Of a stretch of DNA of 64,000 bases, positions 3,107 to 33,768 are shown in pieces (the first letter of the stretch is position 1; each line of letters opens with the position of its first letter). Under the pieces are notes generated by a model. That model was given only the letters and a program-made list of their open reading frames with translations. It did not search any database and was not told the DNA's origin. Both the position numbers and the translations under genes were made by a program. The DNA lies in NCBI RefSeq assembly GCF_022369475.1, contig NZ_CP059600.1, forward strand, positions 310,001-374,000. The letters run 5' to 3'. The stretch is from Campylobacter sp. RM12651 (GTDB lineage Bacteria > Campylobacterota > Campylobacteria > Campylobacterales > Campylobacteraceae).

Positions 3107-3135
3107 AAGAATTTGAAATTTTATTTCAAATTCTT
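3107..3135. terminator. Bidirectional hairpin between yceI-like gene and EF-hand gene 1
   Basis: A perfect 12-base inverted repeat, AAGAATTTGAAA and its complement around a TTTTA loop. It sits nine bases after the yceI stop and overlaps the last codons of the convergent gene at 3126-4064, so one structure can end both transcripts. Confidence 0.6.
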
Positions 3136-4064
3136 ATATCAATTAATCTTGTATCGCTTAAATCTTTTTTAAATTCTTTCGTAAAATCTATAAAATCTCC
3201 TAGCTTATCACTACTTATTAAATCTTTTAATTTATCTTCGCTTATTTTTAATTCATTACTTATGTTTTGGATATTAAATTTTTGTAATATTTCTTTTTCG
3301 TTATTATCTAAAGATTGTGATTTTTTAAGTTTTTCAATTATATTATTAAGTTTGATTTGTTCTTCTGTTTTTTTATTTAATTCTTCAGTTATATTAGTAT
3401 TTATTTTTTTGTGTGAAATTGTCATAAAAGGTAGATTATCTAAAAATACTCCATATTGGTAAGCAGTGTCAGAATAATTGTATTTTTCAGCAATTGTTAT
3501 ATAGCCATCAAGATTTTTATCCATACTAATATTCCCATCAAGTATTGTGCTAATATCAGTTGATTGTTTATTATCAACAGTCAAAATACTTGGAACATAA
3601 CTTGCAACTTTAGTAGCTTGTCCTGAACCATCTTTAGTTGGCTCTATATATAAAGCAAATGCATAGATAGTATAATCAATTTCTTTTTTATCTACTTCTC
3701 CATCGTTATTTCTATCGGCTGCTAAAAAATTACTCTTATACGCTACATCGCTAAACCACCCAGCTACAAAACTTGCTGCATCTTTATCTAAAATAATGCC
3801 TTTGCTAGTATCAATGAAATTATCTTCATTAAAAAATTCTTTTAATCTATTAATATTCTTGTCACTAAGTTTTACTCCGATATTGCTTTCATCAAATTTA
3901 AAAAACACATTGTAATCTTGCTCTTTATTTGTCTTAATCTCAAAATTATTTTTATTTATATTATCTTTTAAATTGCTAATATCTTTAGTATTTAATTCTT
4001 TAGTTTTAACATTATCAGCCCAAGACATTGCTATATTTTTTACTTGCGAGATATCTATTTTCAT
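3126..4064 (-). CDS. EF-hand protein, tandem paralogue 1
   Basis: A 312-residue protein of unknown function with no signal peptide or membrane segment. Two canonical calcium-binding EF-hand loops are visible: DRNNDGEVDKKE near residue 118 and DKNLDGYITIAE near 183. It shares with the genes at 4484 and 5698 a central block beginning FEIKTNKEQDYNVFFKFD and running to ILDKDAASFVAGWFSD, and the C-terminal block DFIDFTKEFKKDLSDTRL followed by IDIRI. It lies 45 bases after the small exported-protein gene (4109-4333) on the same strand and may share its transcript. The lack of a Sec signal together with EF-hands would fit a protein exported by another route, but that is inference. Confidence 0.8.
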   Translation of the reverse strand: MKIDISQVKNIAMSWADNVKTKELNTKDISNLKDNINKNNFEIKTNKEQDYNVFFKFDESNIGVKLSDKNINRLKEFFNEDNFIDTSKGIILDKDAASFVAGWFSDVAYKSNFLAADRNNDGEVDKKEIDYTIYAFALYIEPTKDGSGQATKVASYVPSILTVDNKQSTDISTILDGNISMDKNLDGYITIAEKYNYSDTAYQYGVFLDNLPFMTISHKKINTNITEELNKKTEEQIKLNNIIEKLKKSQSLDNNEKEILQKFNIQNISNELKISEDKLKDLISSDKLGDFIDFTKEFKKDLSDTRLIDIRI

Positions 4065-4483: not shown

Positions 4484-5428
4484 TTAGACTTTTATATCAA
4501 TTAATTTTGTATCGTTTAAATCTTTTTTAAATTCTTTTGTAAAATCTATAAAATCACTTAATTTATCATTTGTAATTAACTCTTCTAATTTATCTTCGCT
4601 TATTTTTAAATTAATATTAAAATCTTTTAAGAGTTTCTTTTCATCATTTGTTAGACTTTTTAGGCCTTGATTTTTAAGTTTTGCTAAGGCTGCTAATTTT
4701 TTTAATTCTTCTAATTCTTTCTCTTTTAATTTATCTGTATTTGCAATCTTATATAAGCTAATAAAATCATTATTATTTTTATTATTAGATACTTCTATGT
4801 TATCTTCAAAATATCCCTTTTCGCCTACATTTAGAAATTCGCCAAATGTAATAATACCATCAAGATTTTTATCATTATTTAAACTAGCATTTAAAGCATA
4901 GCTAATATCAGCATAGTATTCATCATTATCTGCTAAAAATTTACTCTCTTCATAGCCTTTTACATAATTAGTGATTATATATTCACCTTTATTATCTCTT
5001 CTATATTCAAGCCTTTCATGTATATAGCTTAATGTCTTTTTTCCTTCTTTATTGCTTAGCTCCCCATTACCATCAACATCAGCTTCAAGGAATTTTTGTT
5101 TATAAGCAATATCACTAAACCATCCAGCTACAAAACTTGCTGCGTCTTTATCTAAAATAGTGCCTTTACTATTAAAAATGAAATTATCTTCATCAAAAAA
5201 TTCTTTTAATCTATTGATATTATTTTCACTAAGTTTTACTCCGATATTACTTTCATCAAATTTAAAAAACACATTGTAATCTTGCTCTTTATTTGTCTTA
5301 ATCTCAAAATTATTTATATTTATTGCATTTTTTATATTGTATAAATCAAAAGAATTTAAAGAATTTGAATTAATTTTATCTTGCCAAGCTATAGGCGTAT
5401 TTAAATAGTTTCCTAGATAATGTCTCAT
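4484..5428 (-). CDS. EF-hand protein, tandem paralogue 2
   Basis: A 314-residue paralogue of the proteins at 3126 and 5698. EF-hand loops are DVDGNGELSNKE near residue 114 and DKNLDGIITFGE near 193. It has the same central block (FEIKTNKEQDYNVFFKFD to FVAGWFSD) and a C-terminal helix-rich block with KLKNQGLKSLTNDEKKLLKD, shared closely with paralogue 3, then the tail TKLIDIKV. No signal peptide or membrane helix. An AAAGGA ribosome-binding site precedes the ATG. The 269-base gap upstream (5429-5697) carries the second copy of the GTTAC repeat and a TATAAT box (around 5600), in a layout matching the region upstream of the small gene at 4333, which suggests that the intergenic DNA was duplicated along with the gene. 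Confidence 0.8.
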   Translation of the reverse strand: MRHYLGNYLNTPIAWQDKINSNSLNSFDLYNIKNAININNFEIKTNKEQDYNVFFKFDESNIGVKLSENNINRLKEFFDEDNFIFNSKGTILDKDAASFVAGWFSDIAYKQKFLEADVDGNGELSNKEGKKTLSYIHERLEYRRDNKGEYIITNYVKGYEESKFLADNDEYYADISYALNASLNNDKNLDGIITFGEFLNVGEKGYFEDNIEVSNNKNNNDFISLYKIANTDKLKEKELEELKKLAALAKLKNQGLKSLTNDEKKLLKDFNINLKISEDKLEELITNDKLSDFIDFTKEFKKDLNDTKLIDIKV

Positions 5429-5697: not shown

Positions 5698-6657
5698 TTA
5701 AACCTTAATATCAATTAATTTTGTATCGCTTAAATCTTTTTTAAATTCTTTCGTAAAATCTATAAAATCATCTAATTTATCGTTTGTAACTAATTCTTCT
5801 AATTTATTTTCACTGATTTTAAGATTAAGACTAAAGTCTTTTAAGAGTTTCTTTTCATCATCGCTAAGCACGTCTAAACCTTGATTTTTAAGTTTTGCTA
5901 AGGCTACTAATTTTTTTAATTCTTCTAATTCCTTTTCTTTGAATTTATCTATATTCATAATTTTATAAATATTACCACTATCAATTTTAATTCGCTCATC
6001 ACTTGATTTACAATCAGCTGTATATTTATGAATTTTATTTTTACCATCAGCTCCTAAATATTCGCCAAATGTTATTATTCCATCAAGGTTTTTATCATCA
6101 TTTAAACTAATATTTAAAGCCTTACTAATATCCATACTCTCGCCCTCTGGCAAAGCTACCATACTAGGTAAATATGTGCCTATGATTGCATTTGAGATTA
6201 TTTCTTCTTCAAGTGTCTTTTCATTTACTACTATTTCGGCTGCTTCACTAAATACCGTAAATGTATATTTAAATTCCTTGCCCGTTAATTCTCCATCGTT
6301 ATTAATATCAGCTGCTAAGAGATTTTCTCTATAAGCAATATTGCTAAACCATCCAGCGACAAAACTTGCCGCATCTTTATCTAAAATAGTGCCTTTATTA
6401 TTAGCAATGAAATTATCGCTATCAAAAAATTCTTTTAATCTATTTAGATTTTTTTCATTTATTTTTACACCTATATTATCACCATCAAATCTAAAAAATA
6501 CATTGTAATCTTGCTCTTTATTAGTCTTTATCTCAAAATTATTTTTATTTATTTGATAATTTAAATCTTTTAGCTCTTTTTCTGTTAGCTCGTGCTTTTT
6601 AACATCAATTTTCCAAGCTATCGGCATATTTTTACTAGCACTTATATCGTGTATCAT
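5698..6657 (-). CDS. EF-hand protein, tandem paralogue 3
   Basis: A 319-residue paralogue of the two preceding EF-hand proteins. EF-hand loops are DINNDGELTGKE near residue 118 and DKNLDGIITFGE near 198. The conserved central block and C-terminal block are present, ending TKLIDIKV. It is predicted soluble without a signal peptide. Function is unknown. It lies 72 bases downstream of ttrA on the same strand, with its own TATAAT box (minus strand, 6691-6686) and an AAAGGA ribosome-binding site that forms the arm of a hairpin (6662-6688). Confidence 0.8.
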   Translation of the reverse strand: MIHDISASKNMPIAWKIDVKKHELTEKELKDLNYQINKNNFEIKTNKEQDYNVFFRFDGDNIGVKINEKNLNRLKEFFDSDNFIANNKGTILDKDAASFVAGWFSNIAYRENLLAADINNDGELTGKEFKYTFTVFSEAAEIVVNEKTLEEEIISNAIIGTYLPSMVALPEGESMDISKALNISLNDDKNLDGIITFGEYLGADGKNKIHKYTADCKSSDERIKIDSGNIYKIMNIDKFKEKELEELKKLVALAKLKNQGLDVLSDDEKKLLKDFSLNLKISENKLEELVTNDKLDDFIDFTKEFKKDLSDTKLIDIKV

Positions 6658-22493: not shown

Positions 22494-23767
22494 TCAAATC
22501 TAATTAAAATTTCACCTATAAATTTATTATCTTCGTAAGCTTCAACCCTATAAATCTTACCTGCTTTATCAATTGAGTATTGTTTTTGCATATTTTTAAG
22601 GCTTAGTTTTATACTATCTTCACTATCTTTTGCGTTATAGCCTATGACATTAATTCTTACTTTATCGTGTTTTTTAACTAAAAAATAATTTTTTACTTCA
22701 ATCATTTTTGCGAAATTAGTTGTGATTTCTTTATCATCAACAATTAAATTTAACTTATCAATAATATCGCTATATTCAACATTTTTTTCTAAATACAAAT
22801 TAGTTTGAAAGCGATTGCCGTATTGAATACTAAAGCCATTATCTTGATTGTTTTTAAAAATCGCAGTTAATTCATTGCTAGCTTTATAAGTAAATGGCAA
22901 TTTTATTGGAATAAATCTTATTTTTTCTCTTGGTTTTTGAAGGCTTAATAAAAAGCGATTTTCAATTTTAATTAAAATCGGTTTTTCAATAACTTCTCTT
23001 ACTGCATTAGGATTTAATTCAAATTCTCGCTCAAACTCAACTCCAGCAGCCTTTAAATAGCTCTCAATTGCTAGTAAATGATAATATGCTCTTTCGTGAG
23101 TTAATAGATTTTTGCTAGCTTCGTTTGCATAGGCGGCTTTACCTTGAGTAATTGCATAATAAGTTAGGCTTTTTAGCATTTCTTCATCGCCATTTGCTGT
23201 GTTTGTGTTTTTTAAATGATAGCTATGTAATTTGTGTAATAAATTATTATTTATACTTTCACAAGCCTTACTTGCAATTTCGTTTAAATTCCCATATTTT
23301 GCGTCAATTTGCTCTTGGTCAATTATGCAAGAATTTCCCCATTTTTTAGGATTTTTATCCTTATTTATATAATTTGGAGAATAATATCCACTACCATCGT
23401 GAAGATTTATTATGAGTTTTACTTCAGGTAAAGTTATTATTTTTTTGATTAATTCAACCGTGTAATAATCAGGGTCATCTTCGCTAAGTTCTGCGAATTT
23501 GCGATTTAAATCTCCAAATTCTCCACGACTTCTAGCAATTATTGAATCAAATGCAAGATTTGGCACGACAATTACTTTTCCTTTAGTGATTTTATAATCC
23601 GTGATTAATAAGCTAGCAGCGTGAAAACCACCTGGCTCATCTCCTTGAATACCGCCAAAAATCAAAACGGTATTATCACAAACTTTTTCACATTCTCCTA
23701 AAGTGTTTATAGTAAAATTTAAAGCAAATAAATTAAGACTTAAAAATGTTAAAAATATCTTAAGCAT
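22490..23767 (-). CDS. pgp1: Peptidoglycan DL-carboxypeptidase Pgp1 (M14)
   Basis: A 425-residue M14-family zinc peptidase with an N-terminal signal. The metal site is the atypical GGIQGDEPGG (Gln where most M14 enzymes have His, then Glu) and NLHDGSGYY (His); C. jejuni Pgp1 is known to use Gln/Glu/His. Pgp1 trims tetrapeptides to tripeptides and is needed for helical cell shape in C. jejuni (Cj1345). It overlaps dxr upstream by eight bases and the NlpC/P60 gene downstream by four. The Pgp2 partner is not in the window. Confidence 0.88.
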   Translation of the reverse strand: MLKIFLTFLSLNLFALNFTINTLGECEKVCDNTVLIFGGIQGDEPGGFHAASLLITDYKITKGKVIVVPNLAFDSIIARSRGEFGDLNRKFAELSEDDPDYYTVELIKKIITLPEVKLIINLHDGSGYYSPNYINKDKNPKKWGNSCIIDQEQIDAKYGNLNEIASKACESINNNLLHKLHSYHLKNTNTANGDEEMLKSLTYYAITQGKAAYANEASKNLLTHERAYYHLLAIESYLKAAGVEFEREFELNPNAVREVIEKPILIKIENRFLLSLQKPREKIRFIPIKLPFTYKASNELTAIFKNNQDNGFSIQYGNRFQTNLYLEKNVEYSDIIDKLNLIVDDKEITTNFAKMIEVKNYFLVKKHDKVRINVIGYNAKDSEDSIKLSLKNMQKQYSIDKAGKIYRVEAYEDNKFIGEILIRFE

Positions 23768-24854
23768 TCAAAAACTCTCTTACCATTTTATCTACACTAA
23801 ACACATCATCAATAGTATTTATTTTACTATCAGCAAATTTATCTAAAGCCTTAAATACTGCGTCGCTAATATCATAGAATTTACATTCATCTTTTAAATA
23901 TTTATATACAAATTCTTCATTAGCAGCATTGATAATAACACCTAAATCAGGATTGTTTAATAGCTCATCTTTTAGCCTAAAAATAGGGTATTTATTAGGA
24001 TTTATCTCAAAGAATTCTAATTTAGCAAGTTTTAAAATATCAAAATACTCACAAGCAGCAAAATCACTCTCACCTAAGAGTGCATTTGCAATGCTAAGCT
24101 TCATATCAGGCACGCTAAAATAAGCACTCATTGAGCCATTTATACTTTCACAAAATGCGTGAATACTTGAGCTTGGCTCTATGATTGCGTCTAATTCTAA
24201 ATTAGGATATAAATGTTTTGCTTCTATTAATTCATAAAGCTTATTTGTCATTGTTGCACTATCTATTGTGATTTTTGCTCCCATATCCCAATTAGGGTGT
24301 TTTAAGGCTTCATTTGCTTTTAGATTTGCAACTTCATTGTATTTAAAAAATGCCCCACCACTAGCAGTAATTGTGAGTTTTTTAGGGTGTTTAATACCCC
24401 TTAAAAGTGCTGCCAATGCACTATGTTCGCTATCAATAGGAGAGATATTAAAAGTATCAAGAAATTTTCCAGCCACAACCAAGCTTTCTTTATTTGCTAA
24501 AAAGAGTTTTTTATCTAATTCTTGAGTTTGTAAAGATATTTTAAGCCCTGCAAATCCTACTATTGCATTGATAATTCCATCACTTTTTAAATCTTGCATT
24601 ATAAATGCAGCGTCTTTTATTGAGTATTTATTAGAATGATTTACTTTATCTAGTATTTCATCACTCGCTAAGACTATTTTAGGATTAAACATTTTTATTT
24701 GTTCGTTTAATAATTCATAGTTTTTATAAGCACTAATGCACTCTAATTTAATATCAGCTTGTTTTATGATTTTTAAAGCATTAACGCCGATTGAACCAGT
24801 TGAACCAAATACGCTTATAATTTCAGGTTTTGTTGGATTTATAGTAAAGCTCAT
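23760..24854 (-). CDS. dxr: 1-deoxy-D-xylulose-5-phosphate reductoisomerase
   Basis: A 364-residue enzyme of the MEP isoprenoid pathway that converts DXP to MEP with NADPH. The NADPH-binding motif FGSTGSIGVNALKII lies at the N-terminus, LANKESLVVAG near residue 118, and the metal and substrate site with SIDSEHSAL-type sequence (PIDSEHSALAALL) near 137. Length is near the family norm. It overlaps cdsA by four bases, an arrangement known from C. jejuni. Confidence 0.93.
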   Translation of the reverse strand: MSFTINPTKPEIISVFGSTGSIGVNALKIIKQADIKLECISAYKNYELLNEQIKMFNPKIVLASDEILDKVNHSNKYSIKDAAFIMQDLKSDGIINAIVGFAGLKISLQTQELDKKLFLANKESLVVAGKFLDTFNISPIDSEHSALAALLRGIKHPKKLTITASGGAFFKYNEVANLKANEALKHPNWDMGAKITIDSATMTNKLYELIEAKHLYPNLELDAIIEPSSSIHAFCESINGSMSAYFSVPDMKLSIANALLGESDFAACEYFDILKLAKLEFFEINPNKYPIFRLKDELLNNPDLGVIINAANEEFVYKYLKDECKFYDISDAVFKALDKFADSKINTIDDVFSVDKMVREFLNA

Positions 24855-25579
24855 AAGAATACCACCATAATAATACTAGCAAAAATCAAAGCATCAACTC
24901 TATCTAATACTCCGCCATGTCCAGGGAAAAGCTCCCCACTATCTTTAACCTTCGCTAAGCGTTTTAAATAGCTTTCAAATAAATCTCCAAATACAGCAAA
25001 AAATGCCATTAAAAATGATAAAAATAAAACTTCTAAAAAGCCAATCTCACTATAAACAAAACTAGCATAAATGCTTGAAATTATTGTGCTAATAATAATT
25101 CCGCCGATTACTCCTTCTAAAGTCTTATTAGGAGAACTTGGACTAAAGCTAGTTTTTCCATATTTTTTACCTACAAAATAAGCAAAACTATCACATAAAA
25201 CAACGCTTAAAAGTAGCCAAATAAAGCCACTTAATTCAAATCTAATATAAGTTTCAAAAATAAAGCTAATTCCAATTCCTGCATAAATAAATGGTAGAAT
25301 TTCTTTTAAATCTCCTTGTTTGTATGCTAAAAAAGAAGCAAGAACTAAAATAGCAAAAATCATAGAAACCACAGGCATTTGAGTATAAATTCCTAATATC
25401 AATCCTAAGGCTAAAATTAAATAATTATTTTTAGTATCAAATAATTTACAAGCTTCAAAATATCCAATGCCACTAGCTAATAAAAATATTATTAGCCATA
25501 AATAATAAGAATTTATCGCTAGAAAAATTACTGCAATTATTGCAAAAATTAAGCCTGTTTTTATTTTTTCATTCAACAT
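24851..25579 (-). CDS. cdsA: Phosphatidate cytidylyltransferase
   Basis: A 242-residue integral membrane enzyme making CDP-diacylglycerol from phosphatidate and CTP. The C-terminal signature KDSGELFPGHGGVLDRVDAL is intact. About seven hydrophobic segments. The product feeds PssA (57033-57761 in this window). It has a GGAG site and lies nine bases after the small-protein gene at 25589. Confidence 0.92.
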   Translation of the reverse strand: MLNEKIKTGLIFAIIAVIFLAINSYYLWLIIFLLASGIGYFEACKLFDTKNNYLILALGLILGIYTQMPVVSMIFAILVLASFLAYKQGDLKEILPFIYAGIGISFIFETYIRFELSGFIWLLLSVVLCDSFAYFVGKKYGKTSFSPSSPNKTLEGVIGGIIISTIISSIYASFVYSEIGFLEVLFLSFLMAFFAVFGDLFESYLKRLAKVKDSGELFPGHGGVLDRVDALIFASIIMVVFL

Positions 25580-25588
25580 AAATACTCC

Positions 25589-25903
25589 TTAAACAAGTTT
25601 ATCAAAAAGCCTATCGCTTTCTTTTATTTCTTCAATTTCTTCATCTTCTTCTATCATAACACCGAAAAAATTAGCTCTTTTATGCTCTTTTTTAGGGCGT
25701 TCTTCTTGATATGATTTTTCATCATCAAGATTTGTGTTTGTTTTTGAGCTTTCGCTACTTTCTTCTATTACATTAACTTCTGGCGTAACTAAAGTAATTT
25801 GCTCATCAGCAAACATTTTTGCATTATGTTTTGCGTGATTATCAATCGCTACGCCTTGATTTTGATTTATATAATTTATATTTCCAATATTATTTACACT
25901 CAT
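25589..25903 (-). CDS. Small acidic hypothetical protein (Cj1348-like position)
   Basis: A 104-residue hydrophilic protein starting MSVNNIGNINYINQNQG, with a glutamate-rich C-terminal half (EEDEEIEEIKESDRLFDK). No signal, membrane helix or motif recognised; much of it looks disordered. It overlaps the NFACT gene by four bases, and C. jejuni has a small hypothetical gene (Cj1348) at the same place. The conserved position supports a real gene; function unknown. Confidence 0.65.
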   Translation of the reverse strand: MSVNNIGNINYINQNQGVAIDNHAKHNAKMFADEQITLVTPEVNVIEESSESSKTNTNLDDEKSYQEERPKKEHKRANFFGVMIEEDEEIEEIKESDRLFDKLV

Positions 25904-27180
25904 AAAAAAACCTTTATAGTATCGTAATTAACATAATTAACGAATGCTTTTTCAATAATTTTTACATTTGCTCTTTTTGTAAAATCTACTAAAAAATTAC
26001 CTTCTTTTTTACCAGAATAACAAGCACAAAGACTTGCAGCATGATAGATTAAATCTATATCATAGCTTTTTTTGTTGCTTGAAATTATTACATGAGAGCC
26101 TTTTAAATCCTTTAAATGAAACCATAAATCATCTTTTTTGCTATTTTTTAGCAAATATTCATTAGCGTTTTCATTAAGTCCTACGCTAATTTTGTAATCA
26201 TTTACATAAAAATTTAATATGTTTGGATTTTGCTGGGTTTTGCCTTTTTTATTGTTTTTTGCGAATAATGAGCGTAAAAATACTTCATCTTTTGTGCAAA
26301 TTATTGCTTGTTTTAGGCTATTTAAAGCATTTATTTTTTCGTTTAGATTATCTTTTTCTATGCTTATATTTTTTGCTTTTTGGCTTAATTTTTTAGCGTT
26401 TTTATAAATATTATTTAGCTCATATTTTGCAGAATTGATTAAAGAATATTTATAAATTCCTATTTCAAATTCTCTTTCGTAATCTTTGATTTTATATAAG
26501 TTTTCTTTTAGTGCATCGCCTTTTGAGTATTCATAAAGTGCTTTTTTGTTTAGTAATTCTTCATCTTCTAAAGAATTTATTAAAAGCTCTAATTTTTCAA
26601 TTTTTTTATCATTTTCCATTATTTTTTGAGCTTTTAATGAGTTTAATTTCTCGTTTTGAAGACTTGCAAAAATATTTGCGAAATAAATTTTAAAATCTTC
26701 AATTTTTATATTTTTTTCAGTGATTTTTGTAGGTTCTAAATCTATGTAAGGTTCATTTTGTAAAATATCTCTAAGGTTGTTTTTGCCGTATCTTAAGGCA
26801 CTTATTATATTTCTTTTATCATCTAAGATTAGTGCATTTGTAAATTTTCCTGAAAACTCAAGTATTAAATAAAATTCCATTTTTTTATAAGCGTGAGCTA
26901 AGGCTAGTTTAAACTCTAAAATCCTATTATTTATAGGCACTTTAATATCTAAAATACTTGCGTTAAAAAGCATTTTTTTAAGTTGTAAATCAAATGGACT
27001 AGTATAATCTTTAGCATATAAATTACCACTATAAATTGCACTTTTGCCCTTGGTTAAATCAAAATATAATTTATCTTTAAACTCAATACATAAGCAATTA
27101 TCATTTATTCTATACGCACGATTTATCTTTTTATATTGCTTTAAATAATCTTTAATTTGCACTAAATCATAATAATTCAT
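25900..27180 (-). CDS. NFACT-domain protein, RqcH-like (fibronectin-binding annotation in some genomes)
   Basis: A 426-residue protein with NFACT-N at the start, a coiled coil around residues 190-300 and a C-terminal NFACT-R domain whose signature DLWFHLKDLKGSHVIIS is intact. RqcH in Bacillus binds stalled 50S subunits and recruits tRNA-Ala to add alanine tails. It is shorter than B. subtilis RqcH (about 570 residues). The homologue in C. jejuni is Cj1349, often annotated as fibronectin-binding. A likely RqcP partner is encoded at 45074-45334. It is the first gene of the seven-gene operon. Confidence 0.78.
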   Translation of the reverse strand: MNYYDLVQIKDYLKQYKKINRAYRINDNCLCIEFKDKLYFDLTKGKSAIYSGNLYAKDYTSPFDLQLKKMLFNASILDIKVPINNRILEFKLALAHAYKKMEFYLILEFSGKFTNALILDDKRNIISALRYGKNNLRDILQNEPYIDLEPTKITEKNIKIEDFKIYFANIFASLQNEKLNSLKAQKIMENDKKIEKLELLINSLEDEELLNKKALYEYSKGDALKENLYKIKDYEREFEIGIYKYSLINSAKYELNNIYKNAKKLSQKAKNISIEKDNLNEKINALNSLKQAIICTKDEVFLRSLFAKNNKKGKTQQNPNILNFYVNDYKISVGLNENANEYLLKNSKKDDLWFHLKDLKGSHVIISSNKKSYDIDLIYHAASLCACYSGKKEGNFLVDFTKRANVKIIEKAFVNYVNYDTIKVFL

Positions 27181-27242
27181 TTTTAATCCTTTTATTAATT
27201 TTAACGGCTAAAATTAATAAAATTAGAAAAAAAGGGAAATCT

Positions 27243-28496
27243 ATGACTTTAACAGAACAAATATTTGCTCATCATATAGGAAAAGAAGTAAAAGCAGGTG
27301 AGATTATTGATTGTCCTATTGATATGGTAATAGGAAATGATATTACAACTCCAATTTCTATTAAACAATTTAAAAAAAGTGGTGCTACAAAATTAGCTAA
27401 TCCTGATGGCTTTGCAATTGTGCTTGACCACTATATTCCTGCAAAAGATATTCTAAGTGCAAATCAAGCAAAAATTAGTAGAGATTTTGTAAAAGAACAT
27501 AATTTAAAATATCTTTTTGATGAAAAAAATATGGGTATTGAACACGCACTTTTACCTGAAAATGGACTGATTAGTCCAGGTGATGTGATAATTGGTGCAG
27601 ATAGTCATACCTGTACGCACGGAGCTTTAGGAGCATTTGCTACTGGAATGGGAAGCACTGATTTAGCGTATGCAATGATAACAGGTAAAAACTGGTTTAA
27701 AGTGCCAAGTGCTATTAAAGTGCAATTTCGTGGAAAATTAAAGCCTTGGGTTTATGGAAAAGATTTAATTTTAGAAATTATTAGAATTTTAGGCGTTGAT
27801 GGAGCTTTATATAAATCATTAGAGTTTTTTGGAATTGAAGAGCTTGATATGGATAGCCGTTTTAGTTTATGTAATATGGCGATTGAAGCAGGTGCAAAGA
27901 ATGGAATTTGTGCTGTTGATAATGTTACAAGAGAGTTTTTAAACTCGGTTAATTTAAAGAGAAAAGGCGTTGAGTTTAGCCACTTGCCAAATGCTGTTTA
28001 TGAAAGAGTAATTGAGATTGATTTAGACAAGCTTGACCCTGTTGTAGCATATCCATTCTTACCAAGTAATGGTAAAAGTATAAAACAAGCTGTAAGTGAA
28101 AAGGTAAAAATTGACCAAGCATTTGTAGGCTCATGCACAAATGGAAGGCTAAGTGATTTAAGAATTGCAGCGAGTATTTTAAAAGATAAAAAAGTTCATT
28201 CAGATGTAAGAATGATAATTACTCCAGCTACAACCAAAATTGCTTTACAAGCTCAAAAAGAAGGCTTAATGGATATATTTGCTAGTGCTGGTGCAGTTGT
28301 AAGTAATCCAACTTGTGGTGCTTGTTTAGGTGGGTATATGGGGATTTTAGCTGATGGAGAGCGTTGTATATCAACTACGAATAGAAATTTCGTAGGTCGT
28401 ATGGGTGCGAGAACTTCAGAAGTTTATCTTGCAAATAGTGCAATTGCGGCTGCTAGTGCAATTAAAGGATATATTTGTTCTCCTGATGAGCTTTAA
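27243..28496 (+). CDS. leuC: 3-isopropylmalate dehydratase large subunit
   Basis: A 417-residue aconitase-family large subunit. GADSHTCTHGALGAFATGMG and GSCTNGRLSDL supply cluster and substrate motifs, and PTCGACLGGYMG gives the remaining [4Fe-4S] cysteines. It isomerises 2- to 3-isopropylmalate in leucine synthesis. At 417 residues it belongs to the shorter HacA/archaeal-type LeuC class, not the roughly 470-residue enterobacterial class. leuD and leuB are not next to it, and leuA is at 58561. It overlaps mobA by 11 bases. Homoaconitase activity is a less likely alternative. Confidence 0.88.
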   Translation: MTLTEQIFAHHIGKEVKAGEIIDCPIDMVIGNDITTPISIKQFKKSGATKLANPDGFAIVLDHYIPAKDILSANQAKISRDFVKEHNLKYLFDEKNMGIEHALLPENGLISPGDVIIGADSHTCTHGALGAFATGMGSTDLAYAMITGKNWFKVPSAIKVQFRGKLKPWVYGKDLILEIIRILGVDGALYKSLEFFGIEELDMDSRFSLCNMAIEAGAKNGICAVDNVTREFLNSVNLKRKGVEFSHLPNAVYERVIEIDLDKLDPVVAYPFLPSNGKSIKQAVSEKVKIDQAFVGSCTNGRLSDLRIAASILKDKKVHSDVRMIITPATTKIALQAQKEGLMDIFASAGAVVSNPTCGACLGGYMGILADGERCISTTNRNFVGRMGARTSEVYLANSAIAAASAIKGYICSPDEL

Positions 28497-29067
28497 AAAT
28501 AGCGTTTGCCTAATTTTAGGTGGTGGAAAATCAAGTAGAATGGGGCAAGATAAGGCTAATTTACGCTTTAATTATAAAAAGCGTGAAATTAGCCTGATTA
28601 ATTATTTATATGAAAAATTGCAGCCTTTATTTAATGAAATATATTTTTGTGCTAAGACTAAGCCAAGTGATTTAAAATGTAAATTTTTAAAAGATAATTA
28701 TGAATATTTTCATCCAATTAATGGTTTAAAGACTTTTAAAAATATTAAAATTCCTAATTCAAATTCTGTTTTTGTAATTGCAGTTGATTTTGTAAAAATT
28801 AATAAAAGCTCTATAAAAAGACTTTTTTATAAACATAAAAGATATAAAAGTTCAGTAGTGGCAAAAAGTATCAAAACTCATTTTTTATGTGGTTTTTATA
28901 AGATGAGCGATTTAAAATATTTAGATGAATTAGATGAAAATTGCAAAATCAAAGATTTTTTTATAAAGTCAAAGGCAATTACTTTAAGCTTTAAAAATGA
29001 TAATGTTTTTTTAAATATGAATACAAAAAGTGATTTTGAAAAGTTTATTAAAAGTTACAGATATTAA
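28486..29067 (+). CDS. mobA: Molybdenum cofactor guanylyltransferase
   Basis: A 193-residue nucleotidyltransferase. CLILGGGKSSRMGQDKANL is the GTP-binding signature; the acidic metal site appears as AVDFVK. It attaches GMP to molybdopterin to give the bis-MGD cofactor needed by TtrA and formate dehydrogenase. The start at 28486 is chosen because the protein alignment begins at MSFKNSVCL; a longer frame from 28405 would run far into leuC. The C. jejuni homologue (Cj1350) follows the NFACT gene similarly. Confidence 0.85.
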   Translation: MSFKNSVCLILGGGKSSRMGQDKANLRFNYKKREISLINYLYEKLQPLFNEIYFCAKTKPSDLKCKFLKDNYEYFHPINGLKTFKNIKIPNSNSVFVIAVDFVKINKSSIKRLFYKHKRYKSSVVAKSIKTHFLCGFYKMSDLKYLDELDENCKIKDFFIKSKAITLSFKNDNVFLNMNTKSDFEKFIKSYRY

Positions 29068-29078
29068 ACATTTTATGC

Positions 29079-29084
29079 TATAAC
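29079..29084 (+). promoter_or_regulatory. -10 box of selC
   Basis: GCTATAAC, a near match to the Campylobacter gnTATAAT box, ends 13 bases before the tRNA-Sec 5' end. Confidence 0.45.
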
Positions 29085-29097
29085 TAAGCCTTTTTTA

Positions 29098-29196
29098 TGG
29101 AGAGTTTGGCCTACTGGTGTAGCCCTAAGACTTCAAATCTTGTGGTGGGGTAGTTGACTATTCTGCGGGGGGTTCGATTCCTTCACTCTCTAGCCA
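29098..29196 (+). tRNA. selC: tRNA-Sec (UCA)
   Basis: A 99-base selenocysteine tRNA. The acceptor stem has eight pairs (TGGAGAGT with ACTCTCTA), the anticodon loop CTTCAAA carries TCA at 29133-29135, there is a long variable arm, a GGTTCGATTCC T-loop and an encoded GCCA end. It decodes UGA as selenocysteine, so this organism makes selenoproteins, presumably formate dehydrogenase. Its place right after mobA joins the selenium and molybdenum requirements of that enzyme. selA and selB are not in the window. Confidence 0.93.
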
Positions 29197-29272
29197 GGTT
29201 TTGGAATTTTAAATAATATTTTAGGTTTAAATTATAAAATATTTTTTGATTTATGGTTTTAGGAAAAATAAG

Positions 29273-30337
29273 TTGAAAGAGATTAGAAGAGTTGATAATT
29301 TTGAATATATAATAAAAGTTACCGTTGTTATTATTGGCTTAGTTCATCTTATATATGCTGTTAGTTTTACTCTAACGGGGCTATATTTCTTATTACCTTC
29401 TAGCTTAATTCAAATTATTATTTCTTTATTAGTAGCTTATGTAGTGTTGATAAGAAACAAGGGATATGCAATTGCTACTTTATATGCGCATTTAGATATA
29501 TTATTTTCTTGTTGTTATTGCACTTATTATCTTGGATGGGGCTATGGTTTTACTATGATAATAGTTCTTTTATTATCATTAGCATATTTACAAAATTTCA
29601 ATACTTTCTTAGTTCCAATAGGTATAGGACTTGTAGAAGCGACTGCTTTTTTTGTAATGCTTTATATTACAAAAGATACTCCAAATTATCCAAATCCTTA
29701 TATGCCATATATAAATATAGCTAATTTTTTATTTATGGTAGTTACATTGCTAGTTTATATTTGGCTAAATGATAGAGAAAACGCCAAGATTATTAAGCAA
29801 CTTGATGCTAGAAAAGAATTCTTACAATATAAAGCTGAAAATGATTATTTAACCACACTTTTAAATCGTCGTGCTATGAATGAGATATTAGATAATATGT
29901 TAGAAAAATTAAAAAATAAAGAAGTAAATTCTTTAGCATTAGCAATAGGAGATATTGATAATTTCAAGCATTTAAACGATACTTATGGTCATAATTTTGG
30001 AGATTTAGCTTTAAAAGAAGTTTCTAAAGTGTTTAAAAACGAATATGAAAACAATACAAATACTTATGTGGCTAGATGGGGTGGAGAAGAATTTTTAATA
30101 CTATTTAGCAATTACTCTTACAATGATGTTTTAAATTCTTTAGAAAAAAGTAGAAAATCTATTGAAAAATTACAAATTAAAGATAATTTAAATGAAACTA
30201 GCGTTACTATTTCAATAGGTGTTAGTTATTCTATAAATTTAATTAATAAAGATGTATTGATAACAAAAGCAGATGCAGCACTTTATAGTGCAAAAGACTC
30301 TGGAAAAAATAGAGTAAAGTTAGTTAATTTAGGTTAG
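29273..30337 (+). CDS. Membrane diguanylate cyclase A1 (GGDEF)
   Basis: A 354-residue protein with about six N-terminal membrane helices (to residue 175) and a C-terminal GGDEF domain. GDIDNFKHLNDTYGHNFGD holds the metal and GTP site, and ARWGGEEFL the active GGEEF loop. No RxxD product-inhibition site precedes it (NTNTYVARW). The TTG start at 29273 is chosen because AGGAA lies seven bases upstream and the N-terminus then aligns with paralogue A2 (KEIRRVDN against NEFRKIDN); another TTG at 29246 lacks a good site. It is first of four consecutive cyclase genes and presumably makes c-di-GMP in response to a membrane-sensed cue. Confidence 0.88.
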   Translation: MKEIRRVDNFEYIIKVTVVIIGLVHLIYAVSFTLTGLYFLLPSSLIQIIISLLVAYVVLIRNKGYAIATLYAHLDILFSCCYCTYYLGWGYGFTMIIVLLLSLAYLQNFNTFLVPIGIGLVEATAFFVMLYITKDTPNYPNPYMPYINIANFLFMVVTLLVYIWLNDRENAKIIKQLDARKEFLQYKAENDYLTTLLNRRAMNEILDNMLEKLKNKEVNSLALAIGDIDNFKHLNDTYGHNFGDLALKEVSKVFKNEYENNTNTYVARWGGEEFLILFSNYSYNDVLNSLEKSRKSIEKLQIKDNLNETSVTISIGVSYSINLINKDVLITKADAALYSAKDSGKNRVKLVNLG

Positions 30338-30339
30338 AT

Positions 30340-31419
30340 ATGGGAAGTTTTTTAGATCAAGATGATTTAGTTGTAGCAAAAAAAATTGCTAGATATATAC
30401 TAATTATATTTTCAACATTATATTTTTTATTATCTATTTTAATGGGTTGGTTAGGTCATAACTATCCTATGTTTGTTAATTTGTTTTTAGCTTGTATATA
30501 TTTGTATTCATTAAAAAAGTTAGATTTATTAGAAGTCAATAGTTTAGTATATACGGTGCATTTTGTTTGTATAGTTTATGCTATTTTTATGGTTCTTTAT
30601 TTTGGTTGGAGTTTTGGAGCTCAATATTTTTTAATACCTTGTATAGCTTTTTGTTATGTAGGTCAATTTGAAAATAGAAAAATTATCTATACATTAGCAA
30701 TTTTTGAGAGTATAGTTTTTGAATTATTGTATATATTTATGGAAGTTAATAAATATACCTTACAAAATCAATTATATGTGCTTGGATACAATATTAATGG
30801 CATATTTTATATTATTCATAGCTTATTTGCGTGTCTTACAATTATAATTGTTATGTATTTTTTAAAAATTAAAGTTTATAAAACAATTGAGACAAAAGAA
30901 AATGCAAATGAAGTTTTAAGTATTAATGCTTCTACAGACCCGCTTACATATTTACTAAATCGTTGGGCTTTTATGGAAAAAATTCATTTAATTCAATATA
31001 AAAAGAATTTTCATTTTGCTTTAATAGATATAGATTTTTTTAAAAAAGTTAATGATACTTATGGGCATAGTGTTGGAGATGAAGTTTTAAGAGTAACCGC
31101 AAGTTGCATAAAGCTTAATTTTTCAAGATACACTGATATGATTGCTAGGTGGGGCGGGGAAGAATTCTTAGTATTTGCATTAGGTTGCAGTGAAGAAGAA
31201 TTTTATGAAGCGTGTAATAATTTTAGAAAAGAGCTAAAAAATAATAAATTCTGTGCTGGCGATTTTACGATAAGTGCTAGCGTTGGTTGTTTGCATGTAA
31301 ATGGCGATTTTTCATATAGTAATTTTGATAATTATATTAAAAAAGTTGATGAATTATTGTATATGGCAAAAAATAGCGGTAGAAATAGGATAGAAGCAAA
31401 GCGTATAGAAGATGAATGA
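30340..31419 (+). CDS. Membrane diguanylate cyclase B1 (GGDEF, with I-site)
   Basis: A 359-residue cyclase with six or so N-terminal membrane helices and a GGDEF domain: LIDIDFFKKVNDTYGHSVGD and ARWGGEEFLVF. RYTD lies at the product-inhibition (I-site) position just before the GGEEF loop, so feedback control by c-di-GMP is expected. It is closest to the fourth gene (32479). It starts two bases after A1 and its 3' end overlaps A2 by eight bases. Confidence 0.88.
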   Translation: MGSFLDQDDLVVAKKIARYILIIFSTLYFLLSILMGWLGHNYPMFVNLFLACIYLYSLKKLDLLEVNSLVYTVHFVCIVYAIFMVLYFGWSFGAQYFLIPCIAFCYVGQFENRKIIYTLAIFESIVFELLYIFMEVNKYTLQNQLYVLGYNINGIFYIIHSLFACLTIIIVMYFLKIKVYKTIETKENANEVLSINASTDPLTYLLNRWAFMEKIHLIQYKKNFHFALIDIDFFKKVNDTYGHSVGDEVLRVTASCIKLNFSRYTDMIARWGGEEFLVFALGCSEEEFYEACNNFRKELKNNKFCAGDFTISASVGCLHVNGDFSYSNFDNYIKKVDELLYMAKNSGRNRIEAKRIEDE

Positions 31420-32482
31420 ATTTAGAAAGATAGATAATATAAGACAATTAGTAAAAATCACAATGATTTTACTAACAATAACCCATACTACTTATGGGAG
31501 TGTGTTTTATTTTCTAGGTCTTTATCCTATGGTTAATATTAAGTTTATTGAAGCTTTTATTGCTTTAGTAGCTACGATTTTTATTTTAAAAATTGACAAA
31601 TATCATAATATTGCTGTTTATTTTACACATGCTTCTGTTTTGCTGTCTTGTTCAATTTGCACATATATTTTAGGGCAAGGATATGGTTTTTTAATAGTTA
31701 TGATAGCACTTTTATCTCTTGGCTATGTTCATGACTTTAGCAGTTCTAAATATCCTTTGATTATTGGTATTTTTGAAATTATTTTATTTATAGTTACAAT
31801 AATTATTACAAAAGATGTTCCTGATTTTGAAAGCGAATATATGGTTTTTGTATATGTATTTAATGTTATAAATATTACTTCTGTAATTATTTTTTATTCG
31901 TTTTATACGCATAGTATTGATGAGAATGAAAGTAAAATATTAGAAAAAGAAAGCATTAAATTACAAAATAAAGCTGATTATGATTATTTGACAAATATTT
32001 TAAATCGTCGTGCAATGAATGAAATTTTACATATATATCATAATTATTTTCAAAAAGACCAGATTCGTTCTATGGTAATTGTCTTAGGTGATATTGATAA
32101 TTTTAAGAGTTTAAATGATGAGTGCGGTCATAATTTTGGAGATATTGTTCTTAAAAATACAGCAAAAATCATTAAAGATAAAATATCTAAAAGAGCTTCT
32201 AGTTATGTAGCTAGATGGGGTGGAGAAGAGTTTTTAATGCTATTAACAGGTCTTAGCATAGATGAAAGTGAAGAACTAATGAATGAGATTAGGGAAGATT
32301 TTGCTAACTATACTCATAAAGATGGTTATAATGCTAGGAAAACTACAATTACTTTTGGAATTTGTTATTCTTTAAGACTTGAAAGTATAGATTATATGCT
32401 ATCTCAAGCTGATAATGCCTTATATAGTGGTAAAAAATCAGGTAAAAATAAAGTAGAAACTATAGTTTTAGGACAAATATGA
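31412..32482 (+). CDS. Membrane diguanylate cyclase A2 (GGDEF)
   Basis: A 356-residue cyclase, paralogue of A1. The membrane half shares YGFxxxxIxLLSLxY and ITKDxPxF, and the catalytic half LNRRAMNEIL, GDIDNFKSLND and ARWGGEEFL. The GTP-contact segment reads NDECGHNFGD where the others have NDTYGH, a substitution of unknown effect. No I-site (RASS). Overlaps with both neighbours (8 and 4 bases) indicate one transcript. Confidence 0.88.
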   Translation: MNEFRKIDNIRQLVKITMILLTITHTTYGSVFYFLGLYPMVNIKFIEAFIALVATIFILKIDKYHNIAVYFTHASVLLSCSICTYILGQGYGFLIVMIALLSLGYVHDFSSSKYPLIIGIFEIILFIVTIIITKDVPDFESEYMVFVYVFNVINITSVIIFYSFYTHSIDENESKILEKESIKLQNKADYDYLTNILNRRAMNEILHIYHNYFQKDQIRSMVIVLGDIDNFKSLNDECGHNFGDIVLKNTAKIIKDKISKRASSYVARWGGEEFLMLLTGLSIDESEELMNEIREDFANYTHKDGYNARKTTITFGICYSLRLESIDYMLSQADNALYSGKKSGKNKVETIVLGQI

Positions 32483-33549
32483 TAGATTTTGAAAAAAGAA
32501 AATATGAACTAGTAGAAGTTTTACAAGCTGAAAAAATTATGAAAGGTATTTTAGTTTTTAATTTAGTATATGCTTTAATAATGATAATTAATGATATTCC
32601 TTATTTGTTTTTAACGTATTTTATGCTAGCTGGATTATTTTTAGTATCGTTAGTATTTGTTAAGAGTAATAATTTTAATGCTTGTATTTATGTTACTTTT
32701 TTTTCTTGTTTTGTTTTTTCTGCTAGCTCAATTTATTATCTTGGGTGGGGTTATGGGTTTGAATATTATATATTACCTATAATATCTTATTTTTATATAG
32801 GTATTTATAGGAAAAAATACATTATATATTTAATAGCGACTTTCGGACTTATTTATTATTTGGCAATGTATTATTTTTTTTGTGTGAATGATTATTCTTT
32901 AGATATACCTTTATATTTATTTAGCGATGGTTCTAAATTCTATTTTAATTGTTTTAATGGGATTGTAGTATCAACTATTTTTGTAATTGTATCAAGTGTT
33001 TTAAGAAAACAAATATATATTGAATTAGAAAATAGACAAAATATAAATAAAAAGCTTGATAAAAGTGCAAATTTTGATTATTTAACAAGACTTATGAATA
33101 GATGGTGTTTTATAGATAGTATTGAAGATTTAAATATTAAAAGTAAGGTAAGTATTGCTTTAATAGATGTTGATTATTTTAAAAAAGTAAATGATACTTA
33201 CGGACATAGTGTGGGAGATGAAGTATTAAAAAATTGTGCAAATTTAATGAGAAAGCATTTTGGAGAATATACTGATTTGATTTGTAGATGGGGTGGAGAA
33301 GAATTTTTAATATTAGCTTATAATGTATCTGCTTTAGATTTTGAAAATGCTTGTGAGAATTTTAGAATAGAGTATTCAAATTCTACATTTTCTGTTGAAA
33401 GCTTAACTACTAGCGTTAGTATAGGTTTAGTTTTTATAGAAGATAATTTTGCTAATAATATTTTAGATGAATATATAACAAGAGTTGATAAGTGTTTATA
33501 TGAGGCTAAAAATACAGGTAGAAATAAAATAATAAAAAATATAATTTAA
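32479..33549 (+). CDS. Membrane diguanylate cyclase B2 (GGDEF)
   Basis: A 356-residue cyclase, paralogue of B1: LIDVDYFKKVNDTYGHSVGD and CRWGGEEFLIL. At the I-site it has EYTD where B1 has RYTD, so the arginine of RxxD is lost. The membrane half shares SSIYYLGWGYGFEYYILPII with B1's FGWSFGAQYFLIPCI. It closes the A-B-A-B array; the ATG overlaps the A2 stop. It is followed after 53 bases by tRNA-Arg. Confidence 0.88.
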   Translation: MIDFEKRKYELVEVLQAEKIMKGILVFNLVYALIMIINDIPYLFLTYFMLAGLFLVSLVFVKSNNFNACIYVTFFSCFVFSASSIYYLGWGYGFEYYILPIISYFYIGIYRKKYIIYLIATFGLIYYLAMYYFFCVNDYSLDIPLYLFSDGSKFYFNCFNGIVVSTIFVIVSSVLRKQIYIELENRQNINKKLDKSANFDYLTRLMNRWCFIDSIEDLNIKSKVSIALIDVDYFKKVNDTYGHSVGDEVLKNCANLMRKHFGEYTDLICRWGGEEFLILAYNVSALDFENACENFRIEYSNSTFSVESLTTSVSIGLVFIEDNFANNILDEYITRVDKCLYEAKNTGRNKIIKNII

Positions 33550-33602: not shown

Positions 33603-33679
33603 GCGTTCATAGCTCAGCTGGATAGAGCAACGGCCTTCTAAGCCGTAGGTCAGAGGTTCGAATCCTCTTGGGCGTACCA
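33603..33679 (+). tRNA. tRNA-Arg (UCU)
   Basis: A 77-base cloverleaf with a seven-pair acceptor (GCGTTCA with TGGGCGT, some G-U pairs), anticodon stem ACGGC/GCCGT, loop CTTCTAA giving TCT, a GGTTCGAATCC T-loop and an encoded CCA. It reads AGA/AGG, the common arginine codons in this AT-rich genome. Confidence 0.93.
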
Positions 33680-33683
33680 CTTA

Positions 33684-33768
33684 GCGGATGTGGTGAAATT
33701 GGCAGACACGCCAGACTTAGGATCTGGTGCAGCAATGCGTGGAGGTTCAAGTCCTCTCATCCGCACCA
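33684..33768 (+). tRNA. tRNA-Leu (UAG)
   Basis: An 85-base class II tRNA with a long variable arm. Acceptor GCGGATG pairs with CATCCGC, the loop CTTAGGA gives anticodon TAG, and ACCA is encoded. It lies four bases after tRNA-Arg, so the two are probably processed from one transcript. Confidence 0.93.

Follow-up and report, generated by a model that had tools for sequence, protein, structure and literature searches.

Two alternating types of putative six-TM diguanylate cyclases form a tandem array in Campylobacter, best read as a two-gene module doubled once

Introduction

The usual view of diguanylate cyclases is that they work as homodimers. In Pseudomonas aeruginosa, ImcA (PDB 8wcn) is encoded by a single gene; its structure was solved as a homodimer, and it is inhibited by IsmP (PMC10904736). 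Consecutive cyclase genes have been described in Leptospira interrogans, where LIC_11125-LIC_11131 are seven consecutive PAS-GGDEF paralogues and the number of copies varies between strains (PMC12943098). In E. coli, contact of one GGDEF protein with another has been reported for heteromers that include the DgcE-DgcM-PdeR hub (PMC5635695).

Here we describe an array of four GGDEF genes in Campylobacter sp. RM12651. The whole stretch of DNA analysed, 64,000 nucleotides corresponding to C1:310001-374000 of the 2.19 Mb genome G000, is called the window below. We conclude that the array is probably an A-then-B module of paralogous six-TM diguanylate cyclases, which was block-duplicated once in the ancestor of the genus. 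Tandem GGDEF arrays (PMC12943098), six-TM cyclases (PMC10904736) and GGDEF heteromers (PMC5635695) are already known; what is new is a duplicated pair of alternating types, the two-gene ancestor of this pair across the family, and a membrane domain that has not been catalogued. A literature search of open papers found none on the pair of the Campylobacter family, which is weak evidence of novelty.

Results

Layout of the array

According to the ORF list of the window, four consecutive + strand GGDEF genes in the order A-B-A-B span positions 29273-33549. The array is bracketed by tRNA-Sec on one side and by tRNA-Arg/tRNA-Leu on the other side:

29098..29196, + strand: tRNA-Sec, anticodon TCA; 76 bp from the tRNA end to A1
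29273..30337, + strand: A1, predicted six-TM GGDEF protein, 354 aa; TTG start, GGEEF intact, without RxxD I-site
30340..31419, + strand: B1, predicted six-TM GGDEF protein, 359 aa; GGEEF intact, complete I-site RYTD, the sole one among the four
31412..32482, + strand: A2, predicted six-TM GGDEF protein, 356 aa; GGEEF intact, without RxxD I-site (RASS)
32479..33549, + strand: B2, predicted six-TM GGDEF protein, 356 aa; GGEEF intact, half-lost I-site (EYTD)
33603..33768, + strand: tRNA-Arg (TCT) and tRNA-Leu (TAG), the first beginning 53 bp past B2

A1 and B1 are separated by a 2-bp gap, whereas B1/A2 and A2/B2 overlap by 8 and 4 bp, respectively. Each of the four proteins gave a PF00990 GGDEF match, with E values of 1e-30 to 1e-36. 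The preliminary description of the locus, four consecutive GGDEF genes with near-touching or overlapping ends, is thereby borne out. The motifs it had quoted for the two types were also found, GDIDNFK and LNRRAMNEIL in genes 1 and 3, D[IV]D[FY]FKKVNDTYGHSVGDEV in genes 2 and 4; as it had stated, neither a phosphodiesterase nor a receptor gene adjoins the array in the local ORF list. The pairwise identity is 38% between A1 and A2, 38% between B1 and B2, and 24-27% between A and B. Another open TTG lies upstream of A1, at 29246; the TTG at 29273 is most likely the start, because the same position is TTG in G003 and ATG in G001.

No terminator-like site was found in the 76 bp between tRNA-Sec and A1, and a promoter search in the region stayed at chance level, with 37 found and 36.5 expected. 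With no terminator-like site and no promoter that stands out, transcripts might read through from tRNA-Sec, and the array is possibly co-transcribed with it.

Elsewhere in the window, three neighbouring paralogous ORFs on the - strand (3126-4064, 4484-5428 and 5698-6657) carry NKNNFEIKTNKEQDYNVFF; their function is unassigned, and related stretches are present in G003.

Conservation of the array and its flanks

Each of the four genus genomes examined has the identical order A1-B1-A2-B2, so the alternation is not due to chance. In G003 the flanks are as in the window (leuC-mobA-[array]-abgT-peptidase), and in G001 only the upstream leuC-mobA is common to both. The protein-coding flanks of G002 are entirely different, and only tRNA-Sec is kept; since the array nevertheless stays whole there, the four genes travel as a unit. 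tRNA-Sec lies directly upstream of the array in 4/4 genomes, including those with other protein-coding neighbours, and tRNA-Arg/tRNA-Leu are found at the same downstream site in 3/4.

A segment of ∼5.8 kb (window 23400-29200) is ∼99% identical to G001, compared to 69-78% for other loci and ∼70% for the array. It has the look of a recent recombination tract between species; one end of the tract falls within tRNA-Sec or just past it, right before the array.

Number of c-di-GMP enzymes in the genome

The genome contains 19 GGDEF matches; as one protein gives two matches and one match is below the cut-off, they correspond to about 18 GGDEF loci, and four loci are fused to EAL. Six EAL matches, two HD-GYP matches and one PilZ match just under the cut-off were also found. 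The number of GGDEF matches per genome is 15-19 in the genus and 1-61 across the family. The preliminary description had regarded four cyclases in a row as striking, assuming that campylobacters usually have very few c-di-GMP enzymes; for this genome, the genome-wide count (∼18 GGDEF, 6 EAL and 2 HD-GYP loci) contradicts this assumption, and the counts indicate that the array is no exception within a genome short of such enzymes.

The genus has a second two-gene GGDEF tandem, located at L016 (G000:C1:272548-274798), L082, L087 and L088 and kept in 4/4 genomes. Its N-terminal halves are unrelated to those of the array.

Catalytic domain and I-site

All four window proteins contain the GGEEF signature and both metal-binding Asp residues. 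The substrate-binding Asn and Asp, equivalent to N335 and D344 of PleD, are kept in 74/74 proteins compared. The GGDEF part of A2 also gave a marginal Cas10 palm match; no further Pfam domain was above the cut-off in the four proteins, and none of them reached an equivalog cut-off in the NCBIfam search. For each of the four genes the dN/dS ratio is ∼0.17-0.21 (Nei-Gojobori, G000 versus G003), which points to purifying selection.

The RxxD I-site, located five residues before GG[DE]EF, is complete in B1 (RYTD) only; the corresponding residues are NTNT in A1, RASS in A2 and EYTD in B2. The loss follows a pattern in the wider comparison, which includes the two-gene pairs of two sister genera, g4 and g5. 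The A proteins and the g5 first genes are without both R and D; the g5 second genes keep D and have lost R. Most B proteins likewise retain D without R, and both residues are present in many g4 proteins.

In the array of G002 (L074:7531-9692), the active sites of A2 (GGNEF) and B2 (SSEQF) are degenerate, both genes keep their positions, and A1 and B1 are canonical. This degeneration is confined to G002; in the window and the two other genomes of the genus, A2 and B2 have all catalytic residues.

Membrane domain and stalk

In the full window proteins, no Pfam match at E<=1 was found for the N-terminal halves, including no MASE, MHYT or 7TMR-DISM; a Pfam search with 26 membrane halves gave merely four isolated matches, at chance level. 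The predicted six-helix membrane domain is uncatalogued, and Pfam has no model for it.

AF2 models, built from the four window proteins only, have mean pLDDT values of 72.6 and 67.5. They contain five helices, then one long helix entering the stalk, followed by a confident GGDEF fold. The membrane half, without a solved close relative, is of low confidence (pLDDT mostly 45-80). In a Foldseek search, the six-TM cyclase ImcA (8wcn) aligned full length to both models, with an rmsd of ∼15 Å and an alignment mostly driven by GGDEF.

Counted from a fixed position close to TM6, the DxLT motif lies 40 residues away in 70 of the 74 A, B, first and second proteins. The 40-residue stalk is of fixed length and is common to A and B. 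A His pair on TM1 and TM3 was considered as a haem or metal site and rejected; both His residues are kept in A, and they do not occur together in the other groups.

Ancestral two-gene module in sister genera

A profile constructed from 26 membrane halves was searched at E<=1e-10 against 153 family genomes in 12 genera. The membrane domain was found in 60 of these genomes, which belong to three genera; the other nine genera gave no match at this threshold. Outside the family, an order scan (399 genomes) gave just four weak isolated matches.

An adjacent two-gene tandem is present in 54 of the 56 g4 and g5 genomes having the membrane domain. Two matches ∼1 kb apart were found in all 11 g5 genomes and in 43 of the 45 g4 genomes. 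The two exceptions, G092 and G096, have an intact second gene at the usual syntenic place, and the further match in each belongs to another paralogue. At the usual place, tblastn with three first genes detected the second gene only and nothing of the first. G093 has two unlinked copies of the two-gene pair (L252 and L261), the second copy being very diverged.

Phylogeny and duplication history

Trees were built for the membrane and catalytic halves separately, from 70 proteins including the pairs of g4 and g5. Quick trees with conflicting deep joins were discarded and replaced by careful trees, from which four long-branch rows were removed. In the membrane tree, A1 and A2 form one clade and B1 and B2 form another (support 100/99 and 100/100); the catalytic tree gave the same two clades with the same support (100/99 and 100/100). 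A and B are each monophyletic, at 100/100, in the full-length tree. Within A and B, the membrane tree groups the proteins by position, with support of 98/90 for A1, 98/93 for A2, 99/93 for B1 and 100/98 for B2; compared to that, by-position grouping is less well supported in the catalytic tree (B1 81/37). The A1/A2 and B1/B2 splits are older than the four species. That A1-A2 and B1-B2 are equally similar is in keeping with one duplication of the whole block.

The preliminary description had taken duplication of an A-B pair as the simplest history and had proposed separate phylogenies of the two halves as the check. Both phylogenies support pairwise duplication, neither being at odds with it, and the duplicated unit is identified as the two-gene module of the family. 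On these trees the block duplication is well supported, and it is the strong part of our claim.

The full-length tree joins A to the first genes and B to the second genes of the sister-genus pairs, with support of 90/90. Grouping A with the second genes was not rejected by the AU test, with p values of 0.24 for the full length, 0.42 for the membrane half and 0.08 for the catalytic half; nor were A and B as sisters, that is, a pair formed separately in the genus (p 0.20). With the membrane HMM of A, the second genes score higher, whereas the catalytic half places A with the first genes. We therefore considered whether A and B had swapped their membrane and catalytic halves; such a swap is not required by the AU tests and was set aside. 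Descent of A from the first and B from the second ancestral gene is no more than favoured. Taken together, the best reading of the array is a module specific to the family that was doubled once, ahead of the radiation of the genus.

Discussion

Proposed function of the array

Judged from the genes, the predicted N-terminal six-helix domain would detect a cue at or within the inner membrane, and the signal would pass through the helical stalk of fixed length to the cytosolic GGDEF domain. When two GGDEF domains meet, two GTP would be joined into c-di-GMP. A and B would come from one transcript. B1 retains the I-site and would be subject to product inhibition; we propose that the A enzymes escape this inhibition because their I-site was lost. 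Each protein most likely can act as a homodimer, so that the pair would represent two differently tuned sensor-cyclases, and A may also mix with B. We take the homodimer as the default because this is the form of ImcA, which Foldseek placed closest among solved full-length relatives.

Quite plausibly, just short of probably, the four proteins are separate homodimeric cyclases that arose by ordinary tandem amplification and are together only through a common promoter. The seven in-tandem PAS-GGDEF paralogues of Leptospira interrogans, with their serovar-variable loss, are a precedent (PMC12943098), ImcA, a six-TM cyclase already described, forms a homodimer (PMC10904736), and the clean loss of the first gene from two genomes agrees with independent sensors. 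However, such loss is rare (2/56); the alternation is strict in the genus, and none of the four species has an array of one, two or three genes.

From the alternation, the preliminary description had suggested that A and B work as a hetero-pair, perhaps through their membrane domains; the evidence points both ways. It is unlikely that A and B are obligate or preferred heterodimers joined through their membrane domains, the array being two A-B enzyme units. Adjacency is retained in 54/56 sister-genus and 4/4 genus genomes, as this reading would expect, but tandem duplicates can stay adjacent without contact. The 40-residue linker between TM6 and GGDEF (70/74 proteins) would put the A and B stalks in register; an identical register would suit homodimers too. 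I-site loss is asymmetric: A and the g5 first genes lose R and D, whereas the g5 second genes and most B proteins keep D and lose R. Both degenerate members in G002 (A2, GGNEF; B2, SSEQF) belong to one pair, with A1 and B1 canonical, but such co-degeneration has a 1/3 chance if two of the four genes decay randomly. Heteromeric GGDEF-GGDEF contacts are documented in E. coli (PMC5635695). On the other side, G092 and G096 have kept an intact second gene without the first, which indicates that hetero-pairing is not obligatory in every lineage. Somewhat less likely still is the fuller version, a dedicated membrane A-B heterodimer with one I-site-free and one I-site-bearing subunit, built on a six-helix sensor domain with strong matches in only three genera of the family, in which the second unit, once the block is duplicated, can turn into a non-catalytic regulator, as in G002.

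Finally, it is very doubtful that A1-B1 are the enzymes while the second pair is becoming regulators without catalysis or receptors for c-di-GMP. A2 and B2 of G002 have lost the GGDEF signature and are still in place, but in the window and two other genomes both proteins keep every catalytic residue, with low dN/dS. The membrane halves, too, are most diverged in G002, and simple decay is possible.

Two homodimeric, differently tuned sensor-cyclases in a doubled module remain our preferred reading. Adjacent in 54/56 genomes and then block-doubled, the module offers a natural test case for heteromeric membrane cyclases and for the route by which a c-di-GMP network expands. The array also marks an uncatalogued, predicted six-helix sensor domain, and the family range of 1-61 GGDEF matches per genome corrects the view that c-di-GMP enzymes are scarce in Campylobacter-like bacteria.

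Comparison with known systems

The GGDEF domains of the array proteins have the same catalytic fold and residues as those of the SiaD/WspR/PleD type (NCBIfam TIGR00254; PF00990), but the N-terminal input domains are unlike. Like the array proteins, ImcA consists of a six-TM N-terminal domain (predicted here), a stalk and a C-terminal GGDEF domain, and it is similar in length. Different from them, it is encoded by a single gene; the identity is 18-25%, and the superposition is poor (rmsd ∼15 Å). As adjacent paralogous genes on one strand, the four genes are a tandem GGDEF array. In this they resemble LIC_11125-LIC_11131 of Leptospira, which are also consecutive paralogous GGDEF genes; however, the Leptospira tandem is of one PAS-GGDEF type, whereas two membrane types alternate in the array. 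DgcE, DgcM and PdeR are encoded by scattered genes and have different input domains, and their contact was measured, whereas contact between A and B is conjectured.
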